The position numbers were made by a program, and so were the translations under genes. DNA of 64,000 nt, taken from a virus. This document shows, piece by piece, positions 1-64,000 of the stretch. The DNA lies in the IMG/VR virus record IMGVR_UViG_3300037493_000871, positions 1 through 64,000 of that record; one strand, given 5' to 3'. Positions within the stretch are counted from its first letter, which is position 1. The number at the start of each line of letters is the position of its first letter. The notes beneath the pieces are model-generated. The model was not told the origin of the DNA and searched no databases. It saw nothing but the letters and a program-made list of their open reading frames with translations.

Positions 1-270
1 TTAAATAAAAATAATTATATTATCTCTCTCTCTCTCTCTTGTTTTCCCTGCTTTTTACTGCCTTCTGTGGCCCTTAGTTCTCAAAAGGGATGTAGCAGTG
101 CCATTTGTAACATTGCGTTACATCGGTTACAAGCTTTCTTGTTGCTTTAGTTCTCACTCTCCCCCGCTTTTGTGCTCGCTCTCGCTCTCACACTCTCCCT
201 CTCGGTCGTACTACTATGACGTTGCGCCCTTAGGACGCATGGTGGGCACGCAGGTGCCAAACTCCAGACG
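1..270. other. gene-free left end, pyrimidine-rich
   Basis: No convincing gene is seen here. The first 22 bases are nearly all A/T, followed by eight TC units at 23-38. A second C/T-rich stretch lies around 150-207. A small inverted repeat GGCAC-GCAG-GTGCC lies at 245-258. The short frames that can be opened are low-complexity and lack family signatures. The region may be a contig edge or part of an untranslated region downstream of the leftward gene at 338-874. Confidence 0.6.
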
Positions 271-294: not shown

Positions 295-313
295 GATAGG
301 TATCTATTATTAG

Positions 314-331
314 AACCCCCTTGCGGGGGCT
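314..331 (-). terminator. second, weaker hairpin after the leftward gene
   Basis: A five-pair C/G stem with loop GCAA (minus strand CCCCC-GCAA-GGGGG) followed by TTCTAATAA lies just past the stop codon. The U tract is poor, so it may only reinforce the stronger terminator at 271-294 or protect the 3' end. Confidence 0.45.
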
Positions 332-337
332 TGGGGC

Positions 338-874
338 TTACTTGGTCAACACGGTTTCCACGAAGTCGGGGAACGTATCGCGGTACATGTCCGACAACTC
401 AGCGGCAAACGCTACATGCTTCAAGATGCGAAGCTGCACCAACACTTTAGAAAATGTCTTGTCGGTTTCGGCTTGGCTGGTGCTTTTCACCGTGCCCGAC
501 TTGGTGCCTGATGCCGTGCCGGCGCTTGGTGTCGCAATGCCGGCAGCTTCTTTGCCTTGCTTGGTGAAAAGCGAAGTAGCGAACGGTACGTTATGCACGA
601 ACGCCAGCTTCACGCTCATGGGGTAGTTTTTGACGGCGGATTCTTCTAAGCCCGCTTTAGTGAAAACCTCCATACACGCGGCACGGGCTTTGCTGGTGTC
701 GAAGAACTTTGCTTTATCAGCAATGTCGCAAGCCGCCGACAATTCATCAGCCATGCGCTGGCCTGCTTGGTTACGGTTGGCTTTGGCTGTCAGGTCAGCC
801 TTGGCGGCCTTGTTGAATGACGACACGGCAAACGATGTAGTGGACTTGGAGAATGAGAAAATGGACTTGGCCAT
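338..874 (-). CDS. unknown 178-residue protein, isolated leftward gene
   Basis: I do not recognise the family. The ATG at 874 is chosen because AAGGA lies 8 bases upstream; a longer reading frame to 949 would start inside the promoter. The protein is Ala/Lys/Ser-rich and mostly helical-looking. A low-complexity Gly/Thr/Ser linker lies around residues 115-140, between a basic N-terminal half and a C-terminal helical segment. It stands alone: a sigma70-like promoter at 921-949 and a strong terminator at 271-294 make a one-gene unit facing away from the structural genes. That layout suits an abundantly made early protein. Function unknown. Confidence 0.8.
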   Translation of the reverse strand: MAKSIFSFSKSTTSFAVSSFNKAAKADLTAKANRNQAGQRMADELSAACDIADKAKFFDTSKARAACMEVFTKAGLEESAVKNYPMSVKLAFVHNVPFATSLFTKQGKEAAGIATPSAGTASGTKSGTVKSTSQAETDKTFSKVLVQLRILKHVAFAAELSDMYRDTFPDFVETVLTK

Positions 875-920: not shown

Positions 921-949
921 AATGTACCATAGCTAACCTTACCTGTCAA
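921..949 (-). promoter_or_regulatory. sigma70-like promoter of the 338-874 gene
   Basis: On the minus strand TTGACA (949-944) is separated by exactly 17 bases from TACATT (926-921). The -35 is perfect and the -10 matches 4 of 6. The leader to the ATG at 874 is about 40 bases. Confidence 0.75.
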
Positions 950-1193
950 CTAATAATAGATGGCCGGTCGGCATGGGGCGGCACGAAATCCCGGCTGGCA
1001 GCGACCCACCGCACCCCCACCTCCACTTATGGCAATGGGACTCCGCCCGTCCGCTTACGCTGAGCGCACGATCCTCCAACACAAAGTCCCCACATTTATT
1101 CCGTATCCTTCACTTTTTTGTAACCCCTGCAGACCCCACCCCCTTCATACAGGAAAGGCCCCCCATCAAAAATAAAACACATGCGAAAAATTT

Positions 1194-42088: not shown

Positions 42089-42337
42089 TTACTTGCGCTT
42101 AGAAAGACGCGAAACAATCTTGGGCATAGCTGCCCGATGACGAGGGTGCGGCACCGTTCTTCCCGTCATCCAGTTGTACACCGTAGCGCGGGTCACACCA
42201 AAGAAACGTGCAACTTCCGTCATCGGAATACCTTTGTTGATGCAAACATCAGCCAGCAGCATAACTACCGGCGTCTGGTCTGCATCTTCAACTTTCTGAA
42301 GGAAGAGGGAGTCGTACCCCCTTTGCCTATTAAGCAT
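42089..42337 (-). CDS. HTH DNA-binding protein
   Basis: 82 residues. MTEVARFFGVTRATVYNWMT at 39-58 is a clear helix-turn-helix of Cro/MerR-like type, followed by a basic tail ending LSKRK. The start overlaps the SSB-like gene by 8 bp. A terminator lies directly downstream. It may regulate phage transcription; its target is unknown but the palindrome family (see 55711 and others) is a candidate. Confidence 0.8.
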   Translation of the reverse strand: MLNRQRGYDSLFLQKVEDADQTPVVMLLADVCINKGIPMTEVARFFGVTRATVYNWMTGRTVPHPRHRAAMPKIVSRLSKRK

Positions 42338-46428: not shown

Positions 46429-49166
46429 TAACAGTCCCCGTACGATTCGCCCATCCCTGATTCACAGGCCAAAGGCAAGCCTGTCGCCCACTTGGGGTTC
46501 CAGCTCATGCACTCCTCCAGATAGGCTTGCGCCTCCTTGGCTTCTTCCTTCTTGGCGATGATGGCGATCGCATCATGCACAGTCAGCACCACCTTGTACC
46601 GCTTGGCTACGCGCAGCATCTGTTCGGCCACCACCTGCCTAGCTACCGCTTGGCATACGTTCTCCACGCAGTTATGAACTACAAAGGGTTCCGAATGACC
46701 TCGGACCATGAAGCGCGTTCTGGGTCCGGCGTTGAGGAGGTCATAGACAGGTTCCGGTGCCAGCGAAACGCGAGAGTCGATCTCGAAATACCCGTTACCG
46801 CATGTGCTTTCCGCAAGTCCACCGGCAGTGACCCCCTGCGGTTGGTCGCTTGTACCGCCATCGACACCCATCGGCAGTTTTCCGGGGTATACGACCCGTT
46901 GTTGTCCCGTCGATCCAACGTCAACCCCGAAGCGTAAGTTGGCCCCATGTCGGCCCAGAACGCCTCGAAAGACTGTTGCCATGCTGCGCATACAGTAACC
47001 CCACGCGCCCCGTAGTTGTGCCATGCCTGATGTGAGGGCAGTCGGCATCGGTCGCGCATCGACCTCCACACCCAATATGCGGGATGTTTGGACATTGCGT
47101 GCGTCTGGATTTTTGCCCCCACCATGCACCCGCACGAGGGGTGTCCCCCACGCTTGGCGTACTTCTCCGTGTCGATCGCTGCCCGTGTTACGCAACCCCC
47201 GCACTGGCATTGGAACTTCCACAGCGACCTGCGACCGTCCGACCCCATGTAGTGCAGGGCCGTCAGGTATCCGAACTTCTGCCCGGTGTAATCCTTCGCA
47301 CGCTGATGCATCGCGCCAACCTTTCTCTGTAAGTACTTTGTGGTCCGGCGTCATCCGAACACCGTCTACCACGATGGTATGCTTTTCGCCTTGGTATGTC
47401 AACCCGCCATGTTGCACCCATTCAACCCCGTCCCAAACTTGATCGTCTTGTCGCACCGATCCGATAGGAATCCACCCCCGATGCGTTAGGACTTGAGTAT
47501 CTCCTGCCAAACATTTGCCTCCATAGATACGCACAGGCAGCCCCTTGGATGTGTACACAAGCTCGCGCTTGCCCTCGTCGCCAATGTGAGCCCGTAGGCC
47601 CGGGTACTGGATGTGCAACCCATTGGGTAGGGTCAAGCCCGCGCCGGGTATTGCGTTCACAATGCCTATTGCATCGACCTGAATAGACTGGCCCTGCATC
47701 AACGCCGTAAGGCCGTTGCCGGCCCGTTGCCAGAACGCTGCGATGTGCCCTGCACTAGACCTGTATGCGTCAATAATGCGCTTGGCTTCTTCCAGAGTAA
47801 CTTCAACCCCTGCCTGTGTCTTTAAGAACGCCTTGAGCTTAACGTGCCCAACGCCATAGCCTGCGCCCAGCACAACCGTCTTGCCCACCTGCCGCTGGCT
47901 ACCTGCTCCGGTGGTCACCTGCTCCACGGGGATGCCGTAAATCTTGGATGCCATCAGGCTGTACACGTCCTGCTTGTCCCTGAATGCTTGCAGCAAGTCC
48001 TCCTGCCCGGCCAGCCAAGCCAGCACACGGGCCTCAATCTGCGCGGAGTCACAGTCAATCACCACGTAACCTTCTGGGGCCCTGATGGCCTTCTTGATCT
48101 TGCCAGCGTCTGCGCCGCGTGACGGCAGGTTCTGCAGGTTTACAGAGTCTTGGCCAGACCAGCGACCAGAATGGGCCCCGTAGTAACGCAGAGGTACAGG
48201 AAACTTACCTCGACCAGACATGCCAATAAAGCGTTGCGTACGAGTCTCTTCAAGTGTTGTCTTGTTTCCAAGGCGGGCGGCGACAAGCATTTGGACTCGT
48301 ACATCAGGGTGCTCCATCAACTCTTTGAATGCATCATCGGTTTTGGCAAATGCATAGGCCAGCTTCTTGGTAGTGGCGCTGATCTTCGTGGGCGGCACAA
48401 CGCCGTAGTTCTCCAGCACCAAGGCAAACTTGGGGTTTGACATGAGCAGCTTCTTGATGCCATCCATGCCCTCGCTGAAGATCGTATGCACGTACTCGGG
48501 CTCGGCGTCTTTCAGCATGAAGTCCCGCACACTCTCCATCAAGGCTTCCTTGCGGTCTTTGACTTCTTCCAGATGCGCAACCAGCATGGGTTTGTCTAAT
48601 ATTAGAACGGGGTCGATGAACATGCGCAGCGTCAGGTCAATCAGCTTGAGCTCGGACTTGGGGAACCCAAGGTTCATGTACTGCATGAACAAGTCGTAAG
48701 TCAGGTTCACGTCATTGCAGCAGTACTCACCGTAGCGTTCCAACTCATGCCATGTGAAGTCAGCGTAGTGCTTGCCCTTGGCGTTGTCCACCTCGTTGCC
48801 CTTCACACCAGCCACCATGCGTTCAGCTTGCGCTTTGAGACTGTGCGACCTCTCATGCGGGTACAGCGCACGAGACATACCCATAATGTCTACCCACGCC
48901 ATCGGGTCAACGCCGTAGTGCCACTTCAGCACAGCACCATCGAACGCAGTGTTCTGGCACACCACGATCTTGTCCGACCAATCAATGCTGGCCAGCACGC
49001 GCTCTACGTCAGGCTTAGGCACCCATACGGTTGGGCCGTTGTCGATCTTGTATGCGAACCCAATGGTTTCCCACTGGGGCCCACGCACGTACTCTTCGGT
49101 CGTCAGCTTGGAGAAGCCAAAGTCCTGTGAGTAGTAAGTTTCTAGGTCGATTGTTAGGATGCTCAT
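46428..49166 (-). CDS. family A DNA polymerase with intein
   Basis: 912-residue precursor; after splicing 631 residues. The N-terminal 3'-5' exonuclease starts ILTIDLETY (Asp7, Glu9). Polymerase motif A is DCDSAQIEARVLA (about 368-380), motif B RQVGKTVVLGAGYG (about 420-435), motif C VHDA near 862 (the usual HDE is HDA). The intein occupies residues 552-832, between YGGK and CVENVCQAVARQ, where other polymerases read KLVENV. No 5'-3' nuclease domain. One palindrome copy lies at 48595-48606. The start overlaps the next gene's stop (ATGA). Confidence 0.93.
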   Translation of the reverse strand: MSILTIDLETYYSQDFGFSKLTTEEYVRGPQWETIGFAYKIDNGPTVWVPKPDVERVLASIDWSDKIVVCQNTAFDGAVLKWHYGVDPMAWVDIMGMSRALYPHERSHSLKAQAERMVAGVKGNEVDNAKGKHYADFTWHELERYGEYCCNDVNLTYDLFMQYMNLGFPKSELKLIDLTLRMFIDPVLILDKPMLVAHLEEVKDRKEALMESVRDFMLKDAEPEYVHTIFSEGMDGIKKLLMSNPKFALVLENYGVVPPTKISATTKKLAYAFAKTDDAFKELMEHPDVRVQMLVAARLGNKTTLEETRTQRFIGMSGRGKFPVPLRYYGAHSGRWSGQDSVNLQNLPSRGADAGKIKKAIRAPEGYVVIDCDSAQIEARVLAWLAGQEDLLQAFRDKQDVYSLMASKIYGIPVEQVTTGAGSQRQVGKTVVLGAGYGVGHVKLKAFLKTQAGVEVTLEEAKRIIDAYRSSAGHIAAFWQRAGNGLTALMQGQSIQVDAIGIVNAIPGAGLTLPNGLHIQYPGLRAHIGDEGKRELVYTSKGLPVRIYGGKCLAGDTQVLTHRGWIPIGSVRQDDQVWDGVEWVQHGGLTYQGEKHTIVVDGVRMTPDHKVLTEKGWRDASACEGLHRAEVRIPDGPALHGVGRSQVAVEVPMPVRGLRNTGSDRHGEVRQAWGTPLVRVHGGGKNPDARNVQTSRILGVEVDARPMPTALTSGMAQLRGAWGYCMRSMATVFRGVLGRHGANLRFGVDVGSTGQQRVVYPGKLPMGVDGGTSDQPQGVTAGGLAESTCGNGYFEIDSRVSLAPEPVYDLLNAGPRTRFMVRGHSEPFVVHNCVENVCQAVARQVVAEQMLRVAKRYKVVLTVHDAIAIIAKKEEAKEAQAYLEECMSWNPKWATGLPLACESGMGESYGDC
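46671..47513 (-). mobile_element. intein in DNA polymerase
   Basis: 281 residues. N-terminal block A begins CLAGDTQVLTHRGW with Cys1 (precursor 552). Block B is MTPDHKVLT with Thr55 and His58 of the intein. The end is VYDLLNAGPRTRFMV then FVVHN, block F/G with the penultimate His and Asn832, followed by Cys833. No LAGLIDADG or in-frame HNH is present. About 190 residues between blocks have no family signature in this frame but are free of stops. An HNH gene overlaps this part in another frame. Confidence 0.93.
46679..47311 (-). CDS. HNH homing endonuclease nested in intein (+1 frame)
   Basis: 210 residues, same strand as the polymerase but shifted by +1. The ATG lies in the codons right after block B, with GAAAGG 8-9 bases upstream; the TAG falls 5 bases before the intein's last Asn codon. 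Cysteines 35, 37, 40, 60 and 62 look zinc-binding. The core (80-159) has WRSMRDRC, YGARGVTVC, W111, TLDRRDNNGSY and NCRWV, the hallmark of phage HNH homing enzymes. Residues about 165-185 look like a HTH. It would cut intein-free polymerase genes. Confidence 0.85.
   Translation of the reverse strand: MHQRAKDYTGQKFGYLTALHYMGSDGRRSLWKFQCQCGGCVTRAAIDTEKYAKRGGHPSCGCMVGAKIQTHAMSKHPAYWVWRSMRDRCRLPSHQAWHNYGARGVTVCAAWQQSFEAFWADMGPTYASGLTLDRRDNNGSYTPENCRWVSMAVQATNRRGSLPVDLRKAHAVTGISRSTLAFRWHRNLSMTSSTPDPERASWSEVIRNPL
48595..48606. repeat. TCTAATATTAGA palindrome, copy 1
   Basis: Inside the polymerase exonuclease region, encoding LIL of VLILDKP. The most leftward copy, 5.7 kb from its neighbour. Confidence 0.85.
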
Positions 49167-53768: not shown

Positions 53769-54305
53769 TTAGGCTCCGAACATTTCTTTGAGCTCGCGGT
53801 ACAGATCATGGGCTTGATACACGGACAAGTCTTCCAGCATTTTCTCAGGGCTGAAGTCTGACTTGCGAATGATGAACTTGGACTTGGCCGGGGCTTCTTC
53901 CGTGGGCCGGCGCTGCTGCTCAAGCAAAGTACGCACATCTGGCAAGTTCTTGGCACTGAACGTAGGCTTGGGCTTGTACTCAATCTTTTTCTTGGTCGGG
54001 TCCGGCATTGCAACGTACTCGGGCACAACTGCGTACAGCTGGAACCCATCTCTGCGGGTAAGACCTTTGCGGCAGAACTGCGAGATCAGGGAGGTGGTAG
54101 ATGCGACCTTGAATCCCTTGAGTTTTAAGTCTTGGATGACCCCGTTGATGGGCTTGCCCGGATGTTCTTTGATGTAGTCGAACAAAACACGCGACACATT
54201 GTTGGTTACGCGCTTGTCGGTCTTGGTTGGGGTTTGCGTCATAGTAGCCTCTGGCTTATTCCATTCGTTGAGAAGTTTGGTCATTTCGGTTTTGATGTCA
54301 GGCAT
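53769..54305 (-). CDS. unknown 178-residue protein with wHTH-like part
   Basis: Residues about 25-95 (NNVSRVLFDYIKEHPGKPIN; STTSLISQFCRKGLTRR) look like a winged helix, with a disordered linker and a charged C-terminal helix ending KEMFGA. ATG 54305 has GGAG 6 bases upstream. Could bind DNA. Unknown role. Confidence 0.65.
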   Translation of the reverse strand: MPDIKTEMTKLLNEWNKPEATMTQTPTKTDKRVTNNVSRVLFDYIKEHPGKPINGVIQDLKLKGFKVASTTSLISQFCRKGLTRRDGFQLYAVVPEYVAMPDPTKKKIEYKPKPTFSAKNLPDVRTLLEQQRRPTEEAPAKSKFIIRKSDFSPEKMLEDLSVYQAHDLYRELKEMFGA

Positions 54306-54480
54306 GGTCATCTCCAAATAAATCTTGCTGTCTAATATTAGATGGCTCAGGCATGGTGTGAGCCAAGTCCTCTACCTCGCGGATACGCATTTCAAGGCGC
54401 TCGCTTAGGGCTCGGATAAGCCCCGACTGCCCATCGGCATGTCGCAGTAGTTCTTCATCCGTCAGGTGGTCATACGTCAT
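54298..54480 (-). CDS. small acidic helical protein
   Basis: 60 residues. MTYDHLTDEELLRHADGQSG then a charged helix; SNIRQQ near 48-53 is encoded by the palindrome at 54331. Short overlaps with both neighbours. Not recognised. Confidence 0.62.
   Translation of the reverse strand: MTYDHLTDEELLRHADGQSGLIRALSERLEMRIREVEDLAHTMPEPSNIRQQDLFGDDHA
54331..54342. repeat. TCTAATATTAGA palindrome, copy 2
   Basis: Within the 54298 gene, read as Ser-Asn-Ile-Arg. Confidence 0.85.
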
Positions 54481-54791
54481 TGTTTGCTCATTTCTTTAAA
54501 GGACTCAAGGTTGTTGTTGGCATCGGTTTCAAACCATACGATGCACTCAGGTGGGGGCTGTTTGATGATGGACATATGCCCACCGATCTTGGCCATGTTG
54601 ATGATGCTTACTAACCATTCAGGCCGATTGGATATATGGCCAACCCAAGAAGTCTCGCGCCCCTCCCGCCAGCAACGCAGGTTGTACTCGTCGCCCCGCT
54701 CTTCGTACCGATACTCTCGGTGGTCCTCGGGTAGGTCATCTTGGTAGCCGAAGCTACGCTCCATCGTTCTAAGCGCGTCTCGTTTATTCAT
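54477..54791 (-). CDS. unknown 104-residue protein
   Basis: MNKRDALRTMERSFGYQDDL start, many charged residues and aromatic words (WREGRETSWVGHISNRPEW). The shorter start at 54791 overlaps the 54784 gene end by 8 bp and is preferred over 54824. Not recognised. Confidence 0.62.
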   Translation of the reverse strand: MNKRDALRTMERSFGYQDDLPEDHREYRYEERGDEYNLRCWREGRETSWVGHISNRPEWLVSIINMAKIGGHMSIIKQPPPECIVWFETDANNNLESFKEMSKQ

Positions 54792-55698
54792 CAATTCCCC
54801 AATCAAATGCAGACAGAATCTCATCGACCTTCTGCTTGGTTAATACACGGGTGCTGTCTTCTTCTCGCAACTCTTTAGGAGTTACCCCAGACAATACATC
54901 CTCAAGCTTACGCCTAGCTTTCTCAAGCGCCGGGTCTTTCGTTACGTTCATCACAGTGAGCAGATCACACAACTCCAATGCGCCCGTCACCATCGTGTCG
55001 TGGAACACACGCTTCTTGATCTTGCCGTCCTCGGTCTCCTCAACAGTCAAGCGATCGCTCAAGCGGGACAGGGCATCATGCAAGCGAGTCCACGAATCTT
55101 GGTTGGCCGCGGCCAGTTGGGCCTCGATGCGCTGCTCGTACTGTGCGATCAGTTCGCGCTGTACTGTGCTCTCAATGTCAAGTCGGAAGTCGCCCGCCGT
55201 AGGCAGTGGTGTGAAGGAAGTCTCCATGCGGAAACGCTTAGCCACAAGGTGCCGGCTAGGGTACTCAGCGCGATCAAACAACGTACCCAACTGGAATGCA
55301 GCAGCCGCTACCAGCGTGTCGTACTTGTCAAGGAACTCACCCACCAGCCGATCAAATTCAATCTTGTGGCGGCCCATGATCTTCTGGTACTCCAGCAGTG
55401 CAGCAGTAGGCAGCAAGCGGGTTCCTTGGTCGCTCCAAGGCAGTGTGAGGCGGTAGTGCTCGGCACGGGCACGGGCTTGGAACTTAGTCACTGCGTCCAG
55501 CTCTTTGCATTCGGCAAACAGGTTCTTGTACACCGATGCAGCCTTCTTGGAGTTAGACCCCTTGGCCGTTGTGACCTCGGCTTGTGTGCCCCGGTCTTGC
55601 TTGCGCCCCGAGTAGATTGCGATGTTTAGGTCTACCATCATAGCGGCGCGAGCCACACCAGCGATAGGGGAGGGGTTAGTTGTTGTCATGTAGTTCAT
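54784..55698 (-). CDS. DUF3150-like protein, partner of MoxR/VWA
   Basis: 304 residues from ATG 55698. The sequence ILSAFDWGIDE at the end, TRVLTKQKVDEIL, LTLPWSDQGTRLLPTAALLE and KFQARARAEHYRLTLPW resemble DUF3150 proteins that accompany MoxR ATPases and VWA proteins on phages and plasmids. Almost all helical. A palindrome lies 13 bases before the ATG. A longer frame to 55902 overlaps other genes and is rejected. Confidence 0.7.
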   Translation of the reverse strand: MNYMTTTNPSPIAGVARAAMMVDLNIAIYSGRKQDRGTQAEVTTAKGSNSKKAASVYKNLFAECKELDAVTKFQARARAEHYRLTLPWSDQGTRLLPTAALLEYQKIMGRHKIEFDRLVGEFLDKYDTLVAAAAFQLGTLFDRAEYPSRHLVAKRFRMETSFTPLPTAGDFRLDIESTVQRELIAQYEQRIEAQLAAANQDSWTRLHDALSRLSDRLTVEETEDGKIKKRVFHDTMVTGALELCDLLTVMNVTKDPALEKARRKLEDVLSGVTPKELREEDSTRVLTKQKVDEILSAFDWGIDE

Positions 55699-55710: not shown

Positions 55711-55722
55711 TCTAATATTAGA
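55711..55722. repeat. TCTAATATTAGA palindrome, copy 3
   Basis: Lies 12 bases upstream of the DUF3150-like ATG and carries the stop codon of the 55718 gene. Confidence 0.88.
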
Positions 55723-55960
55723 TTGGTGTATGGGTTGGTTTCTTGTGCATCTCAAGCATGAGTGCCATGAAATGTGGGGGGAACACATCGTCGTCGATGT
55801 ATATCTTGTCGGTGTCCGGGGACGGATTAAGGTGGATGATACGTACGAACCAGCCCTCCTTCTTGGCGCGTCGGGCGTAGGCCACCAGCTTGTCGCCTTC
55901 AAACATGTCCCACATGGGGCCGTGTTGCTTGGTCATTGAGAATTTCCATGTGCGGGTCAT
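55718..55960 (-). CDS. unknown 80-residue protein
   Basis: MTRTWKFSMTKQHGPMWDMF start, a compact basic/aromatic domain (KEGWFVRIIHLNPSPD) and acidic DTDKIYIDDDVFPPHF. Ends inside palindrome copy 3 (stop TAA). Not recognised. Confidence 0.62.
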   Translation of the reverse strand: MTRTWKFSMTKQHGPMWDMFEGDKLVAYARRAKKEGWFVRIIHLNPSPDTDKIYIDDDVFPPHFMALMLEMHKKPTHTPI

Positions 55961-56211
55961 GACTGCTCCGCCTGTAGTTTCTCAGCCAGCTTGAGGGTGT
56001 CGATGTAGTCTTCGTGAACCATGTTCGTGCGAAACCAGTCATGTAGCTGCATGGGCGCAATAAAGGGTTGGTAGGACGCCGTGGTTGTACTCGTGCTGCC
56101 TATGTACCTCTGCTGGAGTAACTCAGCGTCTGCAATGGCGTCAACAATCCGTGCAAGTTGTTCCGATGTGAGCAGGGCCTTTTGCCCCGAGATTTCAAGT
56201 AGGTGTTTCAT
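55957..56211 (-). CDS. unknown 84-residue helical protein
   Basis: From ATG 56211: MKHLLEISGQKALLTSEQLARI, then LLQQRYIGSTS and MVHEDYIDTLKLAEKLQAEQ. The longer frame to 56451 overlaps the 56195 gene and is rejected. Not recognised. Confidence 0.62.
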   Translation of the reverse strand: MKHLLEISGQKALLTSEQLARIVDAIADAELLQQRYIGSTSTTTASYQPFIAPMQLHDWFRTNMVHEDYIDTLKLAEKLQAEQS

Positions 56212-56818
56212 GTTCGGTTTCCTCAATTTCAAATGTGATTTCATTGCATTCGCAAGACTCAATAAAAGATTCCTCACTCGTGAGGTGCTCATACTCATTT
56301 TGCAAATCCCTATACAACTTGTTGCACTTCTCGTCCACGTAGGACTGCATCTCACCCTCAAGGCCAGCGGCGCTATGCTGCTCGTCAACAAGATCGTTCC
56401 ATGCGTCCTCGTCAAGCATGCTGAACACTCCCTCAGGGTTGGTGTTACCAATGCAGTTAGCGTCCCAACTCACACGGCCACTATTCCTTCTGTGGTAGCT
56501 GTCACCTACGTCAGCCCTATCGCCATACTCTTTCACTGCCAAGTACAGCGCAGGGTACTCAACGTCATACCCTTTGAGCTCCATGAACTCTGCCACTCGG
56601 ATTTGCCCCTCGAACGCTGCGTAGTCGCTCTGGCAATACCCAAGTGAGAAGGCGATTCGATGTACGTGAACACCCTCGGCGTCCATGTCTTCCTTGAAGC
56701 CCTCTTCCATGTAGTCCCACCACTCATCGAATGGGCCTTCTTGCGCCCACTTTGAATACTCCTTCTGGAACCTTGTTGGGTCGCACTGCTGTAGTTCTTT
56801 TACCGTAATGTTTTTCAT
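56195..56818 (-). CDS. unknown protein with GYCQSDYAAFEGQI motif
   Basis: 207 residues from ATG 56818. The motif FSLGYCQSDYAAFEGQIRV (about 59-77) belongs to a widely distributed phage/prophage group (often SQGDGA-FEG). The C-terminal half is acidic, and the last 30 residues carry several Cys and Glu. Function unknown. It overlaps the 55957 gene by 17 bp. Confidence 0.7.
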   Translation of the reverse strand: MKNITVKELQQCDPTRFQKEYSKWAQEGPFDEWWDYMEEGFKEDMDAEGVHVHRIAFSLGYCQSDYAAFEGQIRVAEFMELKGYDVEYPALYLAVKEYGDRADVGDSYHRRNSGRVSWDANCIGNTNPEGVFSMLDEDAWNDLVDEQHSAAGLEGEMQSYVDEKCNKLYRDLQNEYEHLTSEESFIESCECNEITFEIEETEHETPT

Positions 56819-57041
56819 TTGGTATATCCCTAATGTATTGAGCCGCCCTGATAGCGGCGATTGCTTTTGCTGCGTCGAACGACTCGACGTGTTGTAGGTA
56901 TTCAGAGGGCTTATCACCTGCAATGGCAATATGCCACCCCTCGTAATTCCAGATTTGGGCAACGGCAAGCTCATACTTTTTGTGCATGAGGTACCACTTG
57001 TCAAACCCATACTCGGCCCACTCGAAGTCATCGGCGGTCAT
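56724..57041 (-). CDS. small protein with FDAAKAIAAI motif
   Basis: 105 residues. FDKWYLMHKKYELAVAQIWN, then WHIAIAGDK and VESFDAAKAIAAIRAAQYIR, similar in design to the 57045 protein and to the 62-63 kb paralogues. The 95-bp overlap with the 56195 gene is long for this genome, so either the start or end could be wrong. Confidence 0.55.
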   Translation of the reverse strand: MTADDFEWAEYGFDKWYLMHKKYELAVAQIWNYEGWHIAIAGDKPSEYLQHVESFDAAKAIAAIRAAQYIRDIPNEKHYGKRTTAVRPNKVPEGVFKVGARRPIR

Positions 57042-57044
57042 AGG

Positions 57045-57362
57045 TCAATTCCTTTGTTGCATTCTTTGCAGTTCAGTGGCCGCCAATATCCGGCCTACTG
57101 CCTTTGCTGCTTTGAGCTTGTTGAAGTAGGAAATCTCGTCCCAATCGTTCTCGACGTCATCCCATACCTCCAACTTGAACGGCCCGTTGTCTTTGTCAAA
57201 CGATTCGACGCACGCTATGTAGATGCCTCCATCAGCGAAGCTATCCGTAGGCGGGTCTGCGGGAATCGTATTCAAGAACCAGCGATATATCTTCTTCTTG
57301 CTTGGTGATACGAACACCAGTGATTCCTCAACGGGGCTCCATCGTTTTCTTAGTTCAGCCAT
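57045..57362 (-). CDS. unknown 105-residue protein, palindrome-controlled
   Basis: MAELRKRWSPVEESLVFVSP start with a very good AAGGAGG 5 bases upstream; IYIACVESFDKDN near 47-60 and FNKLKAAKAVGRILAATELQ at the end resemble the 56724 protein. A palindrome sits directly before the ribosome site. Function unknown. Confidence 0.65.
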   Translation of the reverse strand: MAELRKRWSPVEESLVFVSPSKKKIYRWFLNTIPADPPTDSFADGGIYIACVESFDKDNGPFKLEVWDDVENDWDEISYFNKLKAAKAVGRILAATELQRMQQRN

Positions 57363-57375
57363 GCTGACCTCCTTG

Positions 57376-57387
57376 TCTAATATTAGA
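57376..57387. repeat. TCTAATATTAGA palindrome, copy 4
   Basis: Lies 13 bases upstream of ATG 57362, touching AAGGAGG. Its TAA is the stop of the VWA gene. Confidence 0.9.
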
Positions 57388-58552
57388 CGTCGATGTGAAT
57401 TGTTGTGCCGAACGGCGCGGACATACCTGCGGTTGTAACTGCCCACATGGTTGGGATATCCGTGTTACCCCATGAGCCTACATAGCCATCGGTGAACTGC
57501 ACGATCGCATCGGGCTTGATATTGTTTTTGCGCAAGTGATCGAACAACACCGAACCATCAGTGCCCCCGCCGCCCTTGATCTTGAGGTCTTGCACAGCGA
57601 ACTGGCCGTCCTCGAATACCTGCTCACCCGTTACCTCGGTATCCCAATAGATCACACGGCACTTGCTTGGCTTGATCTGCTCGATGATGGTCGCAATCTC
57701 AGAGACGAACCGAGTCATCTCGTCACCACCAAAGATTGAACCTGACGTGTCAAACCCGATCACCAGCTCCGTCATAGTTGTGCCTACCATTGAGGGCATA
57801 TAGACGTCATCAGCAAGGAACCTGCGGTTGGGCTTGCGCCATGAGGATTCGTCACGACCTGCACACGTCTCAGTAATGAAGTCACGCAGCACCTTACGCC
57901 AGTCAACCTTAGGCGCAAGCAAGTCACCGAACACACCGTCCTCACCGCCAGAGCCCTTGCCTTGCATCTTCTTACGCATGATCTCACCCTGACGGATGGC
58001 GCGTTGAATCTCGTTGGCTTGTGCTTGTTCTTGAGCAGGGTCACCATTGGCCTCGTTGCCCTCCCAGTCATGCTCGTCCATGCCATCGCCATCGCCCTGA
58101 CCTTGGCCATCTTTTTGCTGCTGCTTGATGTCGTCAAAGATTTGCTTGACCGACCAGCCACGGTACTTAGGCTCGGGCTTGATACCCACATCAGGCATCT
58201 TGATGAACCCCTCACCATCATCGGTGTCATGCAGCGTACCGTTGACAAAGTAGTCCGCAGCTACGTTGGCCATCATGGCATTCTCTTCGTGCAGTGCTTT
58301 CCATACATTCATGTGACGATAGGCTTTGTGCGTTGCCTCATGCAAGACAAGGAAGCGAAGCTGCTGGTCAGTCTTCATATGCTCTTCAATGAACTTGGGG
58401 TTGTATCGCACGTCCCATCCATCGGTCGCAGCCGTTGGTACTGAGTCATCCACGATCACCTTGCCGCAAGCAAGCACCCCTGAGTAGGCGCAGAACTTCT
58501 TGTGCTGCATGATGGCGATGTGTGCCTTCTTGATTCGATCTTGTACGTTCAT
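57383..58552 (-). CDS. VWA-domain protein with metallopeptidase-like motif
   Basis: 389 residues. HEATH (71-75) with Asp100 downstream is a peptidase-like zinc site (DUF2201-type). A Gln/Gly/Asp linker lies around 145-175. The C-terminal VWA domain has MIDAS DTSGS (268-272), Thr331 and Asp355 (TDGY). VWA proteins of this class work with a MoxR ATPase, here the 59425 gene, to remodel or load a metal/protein target. The palindrome at 58572 sits before its ribosome site. Confidence 0.85.
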   Translation of the reverse strand: MNVQDRIKKAHIAIMQHKKFCAYSGVLACGKVIVDDSVPTAATDGWDVRYNPKFIEEHMKTDQQLRFLVLHEATHKAYRHMNVWKALHEENAMMANVAADYFVNGTLHDTDDGEGFIKMPDVGIKPEPKYRGWSVKQIFDDIKQQQKDGQGQGDGDGMDEHDWEGNEANGDPAQEQAQANEIQRAIRQGEIMRKKMQGKGSGGEDGVFGDLLAPKVDWRKVLRDFITETCAGRDESSWRKPNRRFLADDVYMPSMVGTTMTELVIGFDTSGSIFGGDEMTRFVSEIATIIEQIKPSKCRVIYWDTEVTGEQVFEDGQFAVQDLKIKGGGGTDGSVLFDHLRKNNIKPDAIVQFTDGYVGSWGNTDIPTMWAVTTAGMSAPFGTTIHIDV

Positions 58553-58571
58553 GGTTTTTCCTTAGGTTGTA

Positions 58572-58583
58572 TCTAATATTAGA
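58572..58583. repeat. TCTAATATTAGA palindrome, copy 5
   Basis: 19 bases upstream of the VWA ATG at 58552; its TAA ends the 58579 gene. Confidence 0.9.
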
Positions 58584-58857
58584 GGAAGGTGTCGCTGTGG
58601 CCGTACTGGGCTCTTGGCTTGGGGTTCACGCGGTAGATCAAAAACGCCTCCGCTGCTGTGCGGTCGATCATCTTGCGTATTGCTTTCTTGATGCACCTAC
58701 GCTCCCACCACGTAAGCTCAATGGGGGCCTCGCGTATCTGTGTATCGTCGGTGTCAATCCGCAGTCTTGACTTGATGTGCCGTACCTCGCGGCTGCCGAG
58801 CATTTCCCATTCGTCCTCGGCCAGTGCCTGTATCACATGCTTGGCGAAATCTCTCAT
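58579..58857 (-). CDS. unknown 92-residue basic protein
   Basis: MRDFAKHVIQALAEDEWEML start, a basic middle (WERRCIKKAIRKMIDR) and a short tail. Stop codon lies in palindrome copy 5. Not recognised. Confidence 0.62.
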   Translation of the reverse strand: MRDFAKHVIQALAEDEWEMLGSREVRHIKSRLRIDTDDTQIREAPIELTWWERRCIKKAIRKMIDRTAAEAFLIYRVNPKPRAQYGHSDTFL

Positions 58858-59024
58858 GATTGTTTCCTTGCGTAGTTGAGTAGCCCTGTTTGAAGGCGAA
58901 TTGAACTGTCCGTCATGTAGTTCTTCAGCGGGGGTTGGTACCCCTTGCTGATACGGTTCGGATGCCAGTCTTTATGCAAGCGCACGATGGTGCGCCCGTT
59001 ACTTGTTTTCTCTACGATTAGCAT
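58854..59024 (-). CDS. unknown 56-residue protein
   Basis: From ATG 59024: MLIVEKTSNGRTIVRLHKDW, small basic fold. Overlaps the 58579 gene by 4 bp. Not recognised. Confidence 0.6.
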   Translation of the reverse strand: MLIVEKTSNGRTIVRLHKDWHPNRISKGYQPPLKNYMTDSSIRLQTGLLNYARKQS

Positions 59025-59025
59025 G

Positions 59026-59196
59026 TCAGCTCCTTTGGTTAAAAGAAGCCATCCACGCAAACAGCGCGACCTTTGCTTCAGCTTTACTCATGTCAAAGCG
59101 GGCTTCAAGATAGGGAACAGCTCCCCACATATTGACCTCGCTCGAATCACGCAAGTCAATTAGATAGTCGTGTATTTCTTGTGTTGTTGGTTTCAT
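59026..59196 (-). CDS. unknown 56-residue protein
   Basis: From ATG 59196: MKPTTQEIHDYLIDLRDSSE, two helices with WGAVPYLEARF. A TTG at 59208 is an alternative start. Not recognised. Confidence 0.6.
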   Translation of the reverse strand: MKPTTQEIHDYLIDLRDSSEVNMWGAVPYLEARFDMSKAEAKVALFAWMASFNQRS

Positions 59197-59197
59197 T

Positions 59198-59425
59198 TCA
59201 TTTCCCAATGTTGATTACGCCCATGATCTTCATGAGCCCAATGATTTCGGCGCGTCTAATATTAGATGCGATGGTGGTGCTGTGCTCGTCTAAGTGGGGG
59301 GAGTTCAACACGGCGTCTAAATCCCACCGCCAAGGCTTGTACCAAATACGCTGAGGAATGAGCGCGTAGTATTGATTGTCGAGGGGCATCATGTACATAT
59401 CCCCCGATTGAAGTTTCCTTGCCAT
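59198..59425 (-). CDS. unknown 75-residue protein
   Basis: MARKLQSGDMYMMPLDNQYY start, then an aromatic middle (RIWYKPWRWDLD) and SNIRRAEI encoded over palindrome copy 6. The start overlaps the MoxR stop by one base (TAATG), so the two are translated in sequence. Not recognised. Confidence 0.62.
   Translation of the reverse strand: MARKLQSGDMYMMPLDNQYYALIPQRIWYKPWRWDLDAVLNSPHLDEHSTTIASNIRRAEIIGLMKIMGVINIGK
59255..59266. repeat. TCTAATATTAGA palindrome, copy 6
   Basis: Within the 59198 gene, read as Ser-Asn-Ile-Arg. Confidence 0.85.
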
Positions 59426-60486
59426 TAGAAGAACTTACCGAGCTTGGCGCAAGCCGCGGTGAACGGGCGATGCTGACACGCCATGCTGACCTTGGACTTG
59501 TTGGATGCTACGGATGTGACGAACAGTGCATGGGCCTCGAAGGACTCACCACCCATACGATCGGCATACGCCATGACCTGAGGGATATTGGTTTCGTTGA
59601 CACGACCGGCCAACATGAACGACATGATGAACATAGCGCCGGCACCCTTGGGCAGCTTAGCTTTCATGGGGTCTTTGACGATGCTATCGAACGATGGCAG
59701 TTGATCTGCCAGATTGACAAGCGCCTCCATGTCTCGGGCTGCCGCCTCGCCTACCGTACCGGACAATGCAGGGATAAGCGCAGCGCCTAGCACGTCACGC
59801 TGAGCGATGATGTTGGATGACTTGGCAAGCGAACGGGGTGAGCAGAACGCACGGGTATTGCCCGTCAGAGGGTTGAAGATGTAGGGGTTCTTCTCCTTCT
59901 TGTCCATGTCCACGTAGCAGTCGAACACCTGCGGATACTGTTTGGCAAAGGCCATCACCTCGGGGGCCACGCCGTTGTTGGACGCCCAGTCGAGCCACTC
60001 GTCAGACGTAGGGTTCGCCACGTTGACCACAGTCATACGGTTAAACGCATGGGCAGGGATGTTGTCACCCACGCCGTCAGTGTCAAGGTTGGTTGTACCG
60101 AACACGATCGAACCCGTAGGCAACTCAACGTCACCGATGCGGTGCTCAAGGATGACAGGCAGCAGCATATTCAACACAGGGCGCGAGGCCTTGCCCAACT
60201 CGTCAAGCATCAGCACGACAGGGCGGTTTTGATTACGACCCACACCGAAGCGCACATTCGGCGCATAAGCAGTCGTCATAGTTTCTTTGTCGATCACGGG
60301 CATACCCAGATCACCAAGGTCAAGGTTAGCCACGTCGATGTAGCACACCTGATAGTCGGGCAGTTCACGCTTGAGGTCGGCCAAGATGGACGACTTGCCG
60401 ATGCCGGGCTGACCACGCAGGAGCAGTGTGTTTGTGGAGCCGATGTTACGGATAAGGGTAGATGCTTGGGAGAGAGTTACGTTCAT
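59425..60486 (-). CDS. MoxR-type AAA+ ATPase
   Basis: 353 residues, typical MoxR length. Walker A GQPGIGKS (25-32), Walker B VLMLDE (91-96), sensor-1 like FGTTNLD near 129-135, and arginine-rich motifs farther on. MoxR proteins are chaperone-like ATPases that act with VWA partners (57383 gene). Promoted by a palindrome just before its ribosome site (60509). Good AGGAA upstream of the ATG. Confidence 0.9.
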   Translation of the reverse strand: MNVTLSQASTLIRNIGSTNTLLLRGQPGIGKSSILADLKRELPDYQVCYIDVANLDLGDLGMPVIDKETMTTAYAPNVRFGVGRNQNRPVVLMLDELGKASRPVLNMLLPVILEHRIGDVELPTGSIVFGTTNLDTDGVGDNIPAHAFNRMTVVNVANPTSDEWLDWASNNGVAPEVMAFAKQYPQVFDCYVDMDKKEKNPYIFNPLTGNTRAFCSPRSLAKSSNIIAQRDVLGAALIPALSGTVGEAAARDMEALVNLADQLPSFDSIVKDPMKAKLPKGAGAMFIMSFMLAGRVNETNIPQVMAYADRMGGESFEAHALFVTSVASNKSKVSMACQHRPFTAACAKLGKFF

Positions 60487-60508
60487 GGTTTTTCCTAGGG
60501 TTGTTGTG

Positions 60509-60520
60509 TCTAATATTAGA
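60509..60520. repeat. TCTAATATTAGA palindrome, copy 7
   Basis: 22 bases upstream of the MoxR ATG at 60486, before AGGAA. No gene end here. Confidence 0.9.
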
Positions 60521-60543
60521 CGGGTGAGATTACTTGTTTAGAC

Positions 60544-61317
60544 TTACGGGTGGATTACGAGGACGTCGGTACGAACTACCTCGGTCATGTCTTTGGCGCA
60601 TTGAGCCATCAAGGACTTCCATGCATCGCGCCAGTCGTCATGCGCTTGAATTTTCATATGCCGGTTGGCATAGGCTGGGTACTTCACAAGGCCGACTACG
60701 TCGGGCCACTGGTTCACATATACGTCATCACGTACAAGCTTCTCCATCGAAGCGTTGAGCCACGATACCTCGGGCACCCCGGCAGCTTGATACAGGATAG
60801 GGAATGCATCCTTGAAGCCTGACTCGGCTACGTCCCTACGGAACTCGGCGCGTTCATCTTTGTCTGCCCGCTTGCGCTCGAATGGCACGGGGGTGCCGCG
60901 TTGGTTGCCGTATGCGTCGAACATAATGCCGTCGAAGAACATGACCGTCCCGCTAGCTCTCGTGATAGTTTGTTGGCTCATGCCGAACACACGGCGGCCT
61001 CCGACCCACATGCGCGGCCCAGTGAAGAACGACCCGAGTGCTGTGTTCAAGTTCCTGAGCGTTGTGCTTGTCCACCACCCGCCAGTGCTCAGTCGGACTG
61101 TGCCATCCTCGTATGCCGTAAGGATATCTGTGCGGTGCATACGCACCACCATTGCATTGGTTGCCTCGGTGCCATGTCCGGCCCATGAAGGTCGAGCTAC
61201 GACCCGGAAGTGTGTCTTGCTTCGCCGTGATGAGTCGGCAGGGGCCTCGCCCTTGTGCGCCCCGCGCTTGTACATATAGCGCTCCAAGTGCAGCTTGAGT
61301 TTGGTGTACGTGTTCAT
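60544..61317 (-). CDS. unknown 257-residue protein
   Basis: Basic N-terminal 45 residues; then MVVRMHRTDILTAYEDGTVR (56-75) and STGGWWTSTTL, a motif I have seen in phage proteins of unknown function that lie near MoxR genes. The C-terminal half is charged and helical. A palindrome lies 16 bases before the ATG, before AAGGAA. Confidence 0.68.
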   Translation of the reverse strand: MNTYTKLKLHLERYMYKRGAHKGEAPADSSRRSKTHFRVVARPSWAGHGTEATNAMVVRMHRTDILTAYEDGTVRLSTGGWWTSTTLRNLNTALGSFFTGPRMWVGGRRVFGMSQQTITRASGTVMFFDGIMFDAYGNQRGTPVPFERKRADKDERAEFRRDVAESGFKDAFPILYQAAGVPEVSWLNASMEKLVRDDVYVNQWPDVVGLVKYPAYANRHMKIQAHDDWRDAWKSLMAQCAKDMTEVVRTDVLVIHP

Positions 61318-61333
61318 GGTGTTGTTCCTTATG

Positions 61334-61345
61334 TCTAATATTAGA
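61334..61345. repeat. TCTAATATTAGA palindrome, copy 8
   Basis: 16 bases upstream of ATG 61317 and flanked by G/C pairs (GTCTAATATTAGAC), the most extended form. Confidence 0.9.
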
Positions 61346-61919: not shown

Positions 61920-62056
61920 TTCGTCAGCCTCAGTTTTAGCATGTATGCAATGGTGTACAGCCGTGCCCATTCTTCGATGTACTTGGTGTCCTCTACGTCA
62001 GCGCGTAGTTCTTCGAGTTCTTGCAGTCGCAGGTTCAGGGTTGTCATGTCGTTCAT
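61916..62056 (-). CDS. 46-residue coiled-coil peptide
   Basis: A short gene: MNDMTTLNLRLQELEELRAD then VEDTKYIEEWARLYTIAYML, a heptad-like helix. ATG 62056 overlaps the next gene by 4 bases. Function unknown. Confidence 0.62.
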   Translation of the reverse strand: MNDMTTLNLRLQELEELRADVEDTKYIEEWARLYTIAYMLKLRLTK

Positions 62057-62337
62057 CGTTTGCTCCAGTTGGTTGTAATCATGATCTTGGCCACGGCCAA
62101 GGCGTCGTCTAATATTAGATTGTTGGGCAGCTCTGCGAACGTGCCCCCGTCATAGTTGTTGCCGGTGCTCATGTTGATGACGTACTTGTCCCTGTTAAAG
62201 CTCAGGTCTTGCAAGTACCCCATATAGAACCCGCCGTACTTGGTGTCGTGGCCGGGGTCATCCTTGTCCACGAGAAAGTACATCCCCTCGCGGTCGGTGT
62301 CGTCCATGTTGCTCTCTTGTACCCACTCTGGTGTCAT
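62053..62337 (-). CDS. small paralogue family, member A
   Basis: 94 residues: acidic N-terminal region, YMGYLQDLSF, and the shared end LPNNLILDDALAVAKIMI (about 71-88). AGGAG 6 bases before the ATG. One of four tandem relatives (62053, 62334, 62561, 62782). Function unknown; the palindrome is read within LIL. Confidence 0.7.
   Translation of the reverse strand: MTPEWVQESNMDDTDREGMYFLVDKDDPGHDTKYGGFYMGYLQDLSFNRDKYVINMSTGNNYDGGTFAELPNNLILDDALAVAKIMITTNWSKR
62108..62119. repeat. TCTAATATTAGA palindrome, copy 9
   Basis: In paralogue member A, read as Leu-Ile-Leu. Confidence 0.85.
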
Positions 62338-62558
62338 GTCGTGCTCCTGTTTGCCATGATGATTACCTTGGCTATCTCTTTGGCCTCGGTTAGGGTTAGC
62401 TCGCTGGGCAGGATCGTGAAGGACTCGCTCTTACTTAGCCATACCTTGCCGGTGGCCGGGCTCATGCTGCCTAGTGGGCGAGCGCGAGCATCTTCCATCA
62501 AGTACCACAACGAGCCGCTGTACTGCCAGTACACATTGTTTGCATCCTCTGCGTTCAT
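62334..62558 (-). CDS. small paralogue family, member B
   Basis: 74 residues: NAEDANNVYWQYSGSLWYLM start, then LPSELTLTEAKEIAKVIIMA at the end. The shared end is diverged (ELTLTEA for LILDEA) and the palindrome is lost. AGGAGATAGCA precedes the ATG. Confidence 0.68.
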   Translation of the reverse strand: MNAEDANNVYWQYSGSLWYLMEDARARPLGSMSPATGKVWLSKSESFTILPSELTLTEAKEIAKVIIMANRSTT

Positions 62559-62560
62559 TG

Positions 62561-62779
62561 CTATCTCCTATGGGCTAGTATCAGCATCCGGGCGGCAGCC
62601 AGTGCCTCGTCTAATATTAGATCGTCAGGTAGGAAGGCAATCTCGTTCCCGTTGACTGTGTACACACACCGCGAGTTACTTCCGAACGCCCCGAAGAACG
62701 CATTGGGATGCAAGTCCGCAGGGTCAACGGGGTACAGGTAGTGCAGGTTGTTCCCGCTATCGTCCCAATATGTTTCCAT
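62561..62779 (-). CDS. small paralogue family, member C
   Basis: 72 residues from ATG 62779: METYWDDSGNNLHYLYPV start and LPDDLILDEALAAARMLILA end, nearly identical in both ends to member D. The upstream AGGAGATAGCA is the same as before members B and D. Confidence 0.72.
   Translation of the reverse strand: METYWDDSGNNLHYLYPVDPADLHPNAFFGAFGSNSRCVYTVNGNEIAFLPDDLILDEALAAARMLILAHRR
62610..62621. repeat. TCTAATATTAGA palindrome, copy 10
   Basis: In paralogue member C; identical context to copy 11 (CGTCTAATATTAGATCGTC). Confidence 0.85.
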
Positions 62780-62781
62780 TG

Positions 62782-62994
62782 CTATCTCCTGTTTGCCATG
62801 ATGATTACCTTGGCCGCAGCCAGTGCCTCGTCTAATATTAGATCGTCCGGCAGGACTGCTACCGGCTTGCTGCCGCCGTCCCGCGTATACACTGCTCGGC
62901 GGTGGGAGTCGTATGCTCCTATGTAGAGGCTGCGCGGCCCCTTCTCCCACAGGAACAGCAAGCCCACGGTCGGGGTGTCCCAATATGTTTCCAT
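62782..62994 (-). CDS. small paralogue family, member D
   Basis: 70 residues from ATG 62994: METYWDTPTVGLLFLW start, then AYDSHRRAVYTRDGG and LPDDLILDEALAAAKVIIMA. The variable middle contrasts with the conserved ends. Good AAGGAG. Function unknown. Confidence 0.72.
   Translation of the reverse strand: METYWDTPTVGLLFLWEKGPRSLYIGAYDSHRRAVYTRDGGSKPVAVLPDDLILDEALAAAKVIIMANRR
62831..62842. repeat. TCTAATATTAGA palindrome, copy 11
   Basis: In paralogue member D, read as Leu-Ile-Leu. Confidence 0.85.
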
Positions 62995-63065: not shown

Positions 63066-63539
63066 TCACCCACATCGCTTTGTTTTTGCCGCAAGGTATG
63101 CAGCGTATGCCTCCTCTGCCGTATCAAACAGCCCGAGGTACTGCTGTACCCCATCGGCTTGGAAGTCCGCACGCCATTGGTTCTTATGGGCGACCACCCC
63201 GCGAAACCCGGACTTGTTATCCGCACGGGGGCCATGCTTGTTGAGGTTGTTCTCTACGCGGTTGGACAATCTAATATTAGATATGCGGTTGTCATCCCGA
63301 ACCCCATTGATGTGGTCGAGTTCGCTCTCCGGCCAGTTACCGTACACATAGCACCACGCAAGCCTATGGGCAAAACATCTATGCCCCTCCACAGTGCAAT
63401 AAATGTATCCGGCGGAATGCTTGGTGCCCACGGCTGACCCAACGGCGCGGCCTTTCACGCCAACTCGGCGCGTAAAGATACCCGTGGCTGGGGCGTAATT
63501 GAGTAGTTCCCGCAAGCGGGTAGAATCTGGTCTGCTCAT
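63066..63539 (-). CDS. HNH endonuclease with AP2 DNA-binding domain
   Basis: 157 residues. CFAHRLAW (55-62) and LDHINGVRDDNRISNIRLS (74-92) form the HNH core with His76. An AP2 domain follows at about 108-150 (SGFRGVVAHKNQWRADF; YLGLFDTAEEAYAAYLAAK). The first gene behind the early promoter, so it is expressed early. Mobile HNH-AP2 genes are common in phages. Copy 12 of the palindrome lies in the SNIR codons. Confidence 0.92.
   Translation of the reverse strand: MSRPDSTRLRELLNYAPATGIFTRRVGVKGRAVGSAVGTKHSAGYIYCTVEGHRCFAHRLAWCYVYGNWPESELDHINGVRDDNRISNIRLSNRVENNLNKHGPRADNKSGFRGVVAHKNQWRADFQADGVQQYLGLFDTAEEAYAAYLAAKTKRCG
63270..63281. repeat. TCTAATATTAGA palindrome, copy 12
   Basis: In the HNH-AP2 gene, read as Ser-Asn-Ile-Arg. 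The most promoter-proximal copy. Confidence 0.85.
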
Positions 63540-63647: not shown

Positions 63648-63696
63648 ACGTAGTAGGCTACAAGCTGGATTCTCCAGCCCAATGCCTAAGCATTGG
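63648..63696. repeat. cluster of three adjacent inverted repeats
   Basis: GTAG-TAGG-CTAC (63648-63659), GCTGGA-TTC-TCCAGC (63664-63678) and CCAATGC-CTAA-GCATTGG (63679-63696), the last two perfect and back to back. They lie just upstream of the early promoter. Confidence 0.6.
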
Positions 63697-64000
63697 TAGT
63701 GTGCGATAAGCGGTGTCAGTGCGGCATATCAGGGTTGGTTACCTTTCCGCAGCTCTAGGGTTCGTCACGGTTTCCCGGAGAGGAGCCCCGCTATTTAGGC
63801 ACATAGCGTTCGCATTACATTGTGCTATCTCGTTCGGCATCTGGGGACTGGTGTGTCCCTATACGATGCACTACTTGATACACCACACAATGTACCGACT
63901 GGATACGGTACGCCTATTCGCCAAAGGAAGTGATCGCATATCTAAGTCGGGGGTGTGTCCCACGGTCTAGCCTAATTCCTACTAGTGGCTTCTGCATTGA
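63697..64000. other. gene-free right end
   Basis: No convincing gene. Short open frames in this 304-base stretch have no family features, no ribosome site and biased composition. It may be the terminal region of the contig, or an upstream regulatory region of the leftward block. Confidence 0.55.

Follow-up and report, generated by a model that had tools for sequence, protein, structure and literature searches.

Our analyses revealed that a viral contig carries a dispersed set of palindromes that looks like an unknown genetic switch. As judged by comparison of related genomes, the palindromes are operators that change in concert within each genome, and their likely, putative binder is the protein encoded by the first early gene. 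The source is a bacterial virus known from environmental DNA only, and no description of this system was found in the open-access literature.

The window analyzed here, 64,000 bases long, is the first part of a 65,570-bp contig (labelled G000 among the compared contigs). Terminase, portal and head genes occupy the plus strand. The early block, on the minus strand, encodes DNA polymerase A, a DUF927/primase-like protein, a SNF2-type helicase, a PD-(D/E)XK nuclease, and the DUF3150, DUF2201/VWA and MoxR-type ATPase proteins. The late block adjoins the first early gene and diverges from it, with the first late ORF starting at 1236. Both contig ends (window 1-40; 65570) lie in the regulatory DNA that separates the first early gene from a gene for a protein with ribbon-helix-helix and helix-turn-helix parts (RHH+HTH). 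Relatives suggest that the two ends are continuous, which makes a nearly complete, circular or circularly permuted genome probable. An HNH-like ORF lies in another frame within the polA gene (46679-47311, minus strand), and is possibly a homing element.

The exact 12-bp palindrome TCTAATATTAGA occurs 15 times in the contig, with 12 copies in the window, where the chance expectation is 0.00. All 15 copies lie at 48.6-65.4 kb, the last 17 kb of the contig (p ~1.6e-9 for a random spread), and no exact copy is found in the late block. An earlier note on this DNA had pointed to five copies, near the starts at 55698, 57362, 58552, 60486 and 61317. These five are indeed exact copies located 12-22 nt upstream, each followed by a Shine-Dalgarno-like stretch before the ATG and without a -35 upstream, as the note had described; its list was incomplete, the full set of 15 including copies within ORFs. 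The start codons of the DUF3150, VWA, MoxR and 61317 genes agree with those of orthologues in more than 40 related contigs, and the gene starting at 57362 has only four orthologues among them. The tight spacing between site and Shine-Dalgarno most simply results from fitting stop codon, site, Shine-Dalgarno and ATG between closely spaced cistrons.

At least six of the 12 window copies lie within ORFs, as does the copy at contig position 65401, beyond the window. Four of the six read CTA ATA TTA GAC (LILD). In this contig, 4.3% of the leucine codons are CTA and another 4.3% are TTA, and 6.1% of the isoleucine codons are ATA, so that CTA ATA TTA is expected about once per 9,000 such tripeptides (about 1e-4 for each in-gene copy). 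This use of rare codons suggests that selection at these copies acts on the DNA word rather than on the peptide. A run of small paralogous ORFs (62053-62994, minus strand) has the common C-terminal pattern LPDDLILDEA, and three of them encode the palindrome.

Table 1. Palindrome copies, associated genes and the first early promoter (window coordinates)
Feature	Position	Strand	Remarks
First early gene	338..874	-	178 aa; proposed operator-binding autoregulator; allele/helix-site covariation
Near-match TCTAATAATAGA	303..314	-	between first-gene stop and intrinsic terminator (~294-271)
Early promoter	921..949	-	-35 TTGACA (949-944), 17-bp spacer, -10 TACATT (926-921)
Degenerate palindrome TCTATTATTAGT	949..960	-	abuts -35 of first-gene promoter, one base overlapping
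Palindrome copy	48595..48606		in DNA polymerase A gene; reads CTA ATA TTA GAC (LILD)
Palindrome copy	54331..54342		upstream of winged-helix-like gene 53769-54305
DUF3150-like gene	54784..55698	-	site upstream; E=0.004, below curated cut-off
Palindrome copy	55711..55722		ends 12 nt before DUF3150-like start 55698 (-)
Palindrome copy	57376..57387		ends 13 nt before start 57362 (-)
DUF2201 metallopeptidase/VWA-like gene	57383..58552	-	site upstream; E=8e-34
Palindrome copy	58572..58583		ends 19 nt before VWA/DUF2201 start 58552 (-)
Palindrome copy	59255..59266		in small conserved ORF (~59198-59425, -); reads TCT AAT ATT AGA (SNIR)
MoxR-type AAA ATPase gene	59425..60486	-	site upstream; phrog_1297, 1e-52
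Palindrome copy	60509..60520		ends 22 nt before MoxR-type ATPase start 60486 (-)
TYTKL-type gene	60544..61317	-	function unknown; site upstream
Palindrome copy	61334..61345		ends 16 nt before TYTKL-type start 61317 (-)
Palindrome copy	62108..62119		in small ORF 62053-62337; CTA ATA TTA GAC (LILD)
Palindrome copy	62610..62621		in paralogous small ORF 62561-62779
Palindrome copy	62831..62842		in paralogous small ORF 62782-62994
Palindrome copy	63270..63281		in HNH endonuclease gene 63066-63539; TCT AAT ATT AGA frame (SNIR)

Relatives were gathered via the MoxR and VWA proteins, and their contigs were then searched de novo for palindromes. Nearly all of the 50 related contigs have their own multi-copy, lineage-specific palindrome, and the variants of TCTAATATTAGA, namely TCTAAGCTTAGA, TTTAAGGTTAAA, CTTAAGCTTAAG, TATAACCTTATA, ACTAATATTAGT and TCTAACGTTAGA, stand upstream of the same genes. 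They share the plan N2-TAA-NN-TTA-N2, with deviating spacings in G039 (GCTAAGTCTTAGC), G028 (TTTAACCGGTTAAA), G038 and G049. The palindrome is weak or absent in a handful of contigs (G025, G035, G045) and present in few copies in G016; in the stretches examined of the cultured terminase relatives DSL-LC04 and HTVC023P, no clear multi-copy palindrome was found. The lineage's own site precedes the orthologues of the MoxR gene in 39 of 48 cases, of the VWA gene in 36 of 49, of the TYTKL-type gene in 35 of 47 and of the DUF3150 gene in 24 of 44. Among 532 sites in 49 contigs, many of them related, so that the counts are non-independent, 226 (42%) lie at most 40 nt upstream of a start codon, compared to 6.9% of random positions in the same regions, with a modal distance of 16 nt; called genes contain 15% of the sites, where random positions would give 71%. 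The arrangement of a site before a terminator, as at the near-match downstream of the first gene, recurs in G037 and G042, but as a general rule it holds for only 2 of the 532 sites, not above the control. An association of all sites with sigma70 promoters was discarded because the enrichment is confounded by the resemblance of the site itself to a -10.

The two halves of the site vary independently in mixed genomes. In G017, TC/TA heterosites make up six of 12 sites; TC and TA half-sites combine freely in four genomes, and AC and TC half-sites in three others. Such combinations break complementarity, which argues against an RNA stem and is allowed by a protein that reads the halves separately. 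In most lineages, moreover, the 20-nt windows around the sites fold as RNA no better than random windows. The independence of the half-sites, together with hairpins no stronger than random, makes a dimer that binds DNA a better candidate than an RNA element or a promoter core.

Thirty contigs contain a homologue of the first-gene protein; they include members of the ACTAAT and TCTAACG lineages, where no RHH+HTH protein was detected. Three members tested had no Pfam or PHROG match, and neither profile searches nor Foldseek found a solved relative in the PDB. The best VIA-align hit, a TetR-family chain with a Z of 5.2, is not trusted. One uncharacterised viral homologue was found in BFVD, and the G022 member as query found no homologue in 50,697 phage records. 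The AF2 model (mean pLDDT 78.6, pTM 0.55) contains helices at residues 63-73 and 78-93, which are predicted to form a helix-turn-helix.

The binder assignment draws on the covariation between this protein and the site. Within one clade, the first-gene proteins of the TATAAC group share 91-92% identity with one another and 45-51% with those of groups that have other sites, and MoxR, VWA and DUF3150 stay 82-100% identical across the same clade. Given the core distance, the site correlated with the N-terminal half of the first-gene protein (partial Mantel 0.37, p=0.0002), as against 0.10 (p=0.11) for the C-terminal half; given the N-terminal half, the correlation between site and core distance was about 0. 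When the enlarged locus set was deduplicated to 29 cases, the partial correlation with the site was 0.02 for the C-terminal half and 0.344 (p=0.001) for the predicted recognition segment. The tests were devised during the analysis and the segment was first chosen by eye; a later, unbiased sliding scan with 12-residue windows peaked within residues 79-105 (G000 numbering; familywise p<=0.002), overlapping the AF2 helix 78-93. Eight control genes of the same genomes displayed no significant covariation with the site. Since the Mantel and permutation procedures control shared ancestry only partly, we regard the covariation between helix and site as strong but not final evidence. The site TCTAATATTAGA is common to G000 and G018/G037, despite first-gene proteins that are only 24-28% identical. 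A one-residue recognition code, pairing V, F or I with C at the second outer base, was abandoned because of the exceptions L302 and L330.

The promoter of the first early gene is built alike in all 26 usable contigs: an exact TTGACA, 17 bp of spacer and a hexamer resembling a -10 stand upstream of the gene, and the lineage's own site lies 0-23 bp, mostly 14 or 15, upstream of the -35, with its center at roughly -42 to -64. Compared with the median site of its genome, this head site is weaker in 16 contigs, equal in 10 and stronger in none. The layout supports autoregulation. The upstream position is not that of classic steric repression, and would also be compatible with an activator.

A conserved non-coding stretch of ~220-490 nt lies near the head of the operon in about 20 relatives. 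In G000, it covers window positions ~63690-64000 (minus strand), continues to contig position ~64020 and adjoins a palindrome copy; L110:10124-10385 and L123:12521-12752 are examples from relatives. Its predicted common fold has 39 pairs, 14 of them with double-sided changes (7 sequences), and no Rfam family matches it. It looks like an undescribed phage RNA.

On balance, we lean towards a reading in which the palindromes are the dispersed operators of one regulon, and a dimer of the first-gene protein regulates its own gene and silences the early operon in a roadblock-like manner. The protein would bind the palindromes as a dimer, control its own promoter through the upstream and often weaker site, and act on the early operon as a whole by way of 10-20 sites located between cistrons and within genes. 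As it accumulates, it would most likely silence early transcription, with initiation curbed at the head promoter and the internal sites acting as roadblocks to RNA polymerase, as stoperators do, thereby bringing about the early-to-late switch. With one protein reading all sites, a change in the recognition helix of a lineage would then be followed by all of its sites in concert. We infer direct binding, the dimeric state, the sign of regulation and its timing; the first position of the gene, its own, often weaker site, the many sites in the same operon and the lack of exact late copies fit negative feedback and early silencing.

A search of 12 contigs of 52-68 kb, which may be incomplete, yielded neither tyrosine nor serine integrases (PF00589, PF00239). 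In the same contigs, ParA (PF13614) was not detected, compared to its presence in 14 of 14 control genomes. Single-subunit RNA polymerase (PF00940) gave no match in them, nor anywhere in the control. Bacterial genomes searched with the VWA protein yielded no close relative. As no integrase or ParA was found in the 12 long contigs and no close relative in bacterial genomes, lysogenic immunity is not favoured as the purpose of the sites. The broader proposal is that a new DNA-binding family runs the early-to-late switch of apparently non-integrating phages through 10-20 palindromic operators, some within coding sequence, with its specificity repeatedly switched and the sites rewritten. This we hold more tentatively, leaning slightly against it as a whole.

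The same protein and sites could instead constitute an activator system, a possible but improbable alternative, in which the protein stimulates its own promoter from a class I-like upstream position and boosts transcription of the downstream early or middle genes or keeps it open. In most lineages, the head site precedes the -35 by 14-15 bp, where activators often bind, and sites stand before individual genes. However, activation should be superfluous at a head promoter that has an exact -35 and a 17-bp spacer, the distance between site and promoter ranges from -1 to 23 bp with no helical phasing, and no clear promoter lies downstream of the intercistronic and in-gene sites.

We consider it unlikely that the sites are read by another phage protein, the candidates being the RHH+HTH protein (contig 65055-65570), an Xre-like protein (42089-42337) and the winged-helix-like protein (53769-54305), all of which look DNA-binding. 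The RHH+HTH helix does fit the site coarsely, with N accompanying TAATATTA and G accompanying TTTAAGGTTAAA. However, its partial Mantel correlation with the site is -0.10 (p=0.95), it does not follow the site type in the largest clade, near-identical helices occur with three different sites, and the protein is undetected in ACTAAT genomes. A 100% identical Xre-like protein is found in loci with the sites TCTAAGGTTAGA and TATAAGGTTATA, and the winged-helix-like protein gave a partial correlation of 0.00 (p=0.50). These three were therefore rejected as binders.

The RHH+HTH protein (minus strand; L005:19055-19570) consists of a ribbon-helix-helix-like N-terminus and two HTH repeats, and varies in length and number among relatives. 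A second palindrome, GTTACAWTGTAAC, is present in two or three copies directly upstream of its gene in TATAAC/CTTAAG-clade relatives (G048, contig 10507 and 10645; G026, 30172, 30310 and 30571), and related GTAAC repeats lie at window ~95-130. GTTACAWTGTAAC stays constant while the main site changes, and is probably this regulator's own operator. The Xre-like HTH protein (82 aa, minus strand) is strongly conserved, in 11 of the 11 long relatives compared.

A host regulator, with lineages differing because their hosts differ, is a quite improbable reader of the sites. Many host regulators could use palindromes of such a length, but the sites covary with the predicted helix of a phage protein, change in concert between phages whose MoxR proteins are ~90% identical, and are confined to one phage operon. 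Still less probable are DNA-organising or centromere-like sites of the parS or KorB type, serving segregation or condensation rather than transcription: many dispersed palindromes would suit them, and IncP plasmids use such sites, but no ParA (PF13614) was found in the 12 long contigs, and the sites occur only in the early operon, one of them beside each first-gene promoter. Control at the RNA level, by leader hairpins bound by a regulator at ribosome sites, is the least probable of all, as the modal 16-nt distance to the start codon is opposed by site windows that fold little or no better than random, by asymmetric half-sites that break pairing, and by copies inside genes and at the promoter.

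Among the three options that the earlier note had offered, the RNA-binding regulator is disfavoured on these grounds. The non-standard promoter core fares no better: the sequence differs from lineage to lineage (TAATATTA, TAAGGTTA, TAAGCTTA), some copies are located within genes, and separate sigma70-type promoters with exact TTGACA and 17-bp spacing stand beside the head-of-operon site. The DNA-bound repressor or roadblock is best supported, by the concerted site change, the placement before the same genes and the helix covariation.

If the autoregulatory silencing proposed here is correct, these phages would provide at least six naturally occurring kinds of operator, paired with alleles of a single small protein, and the co-change of a regulator and a dozen scattered sites would become directly testable. 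The family of this protein matches nothing in Pfam, in PHROGs or among solved structures. Dispersed roadblock-type operators would also be extended from temperate phages to phages without a sign of lysogeny, where their purpose would be timing rather than immunity.

Several known systems invite comparison. Cultured homologues of the MoxR/VWA pair are mostly found in 70-78 kb phages that look N4-like (25-31% identity), and the G022 query found no first-gene homologue in the 50,697 phage records. The KorA and KorB operators of IncP plasmids are repeated 12-13 bp palindromes serving several operons, with autoregulation; here, the first-gene protein has no KorA or KorB match, and the sites also lie between and inside the cistrons of one operon. 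In phage SP-beta, one phage protein, MrpR, reads the 15-bp repeated element SPBRE at many intergenic regions (PMC10516654), as we propose for the first-gene protein and its repeated element. MrpR is a protein of ~320 aa with a tyrosine-recombinase fold from a temperate phage, whereas the present protein has 178 aa and is all-helical in its model, and no integrase was detected. Foldseek and VIA-align gave no trustworthy match for the present protein.

The stoperators of cluster A mycobacteriophages such as L5 and TipsytheTRex are a set of more than 20 short sites, found at early promoters and in the small gaps between genes; they have been proposed to halt both initiation and elongation, and diverge between phages in site motif and repressor alike (PMC9283540, PMC6550527). 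The many copies of one short site at an early promoter and in short intergenic gaps are shared by the present phages. However, stoperators are asymmetric 13-bp sites, oriented with transcription and bound by monomers, whereas the sites here are perfect or near-perfect palindromes with independent halves. The L5 and TipsytheTRex repressors combine an N-terminal HTH with a stoperator domain, and the first-gene protein has no Pfam or PHROG match in the three members tested. Cluster A phages are temperate, with integrase or parABS; no integrase or ParA was found in our 12 contigs of 52-68 kb, which may be incomplete, and the putative binder here is, unlike in the cluster A system, encoded by the first gene of the early operon. 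Because of the palindromic sites and the lack of a Pfam or PHROG match, a phage-record homologue (G022 query) or a solved relative, we file the system with neither stoperators nor SPBRE/MrpR; it also recalls the latter, but by analogy the cluster A stoperators appear to be its closest working likeness.
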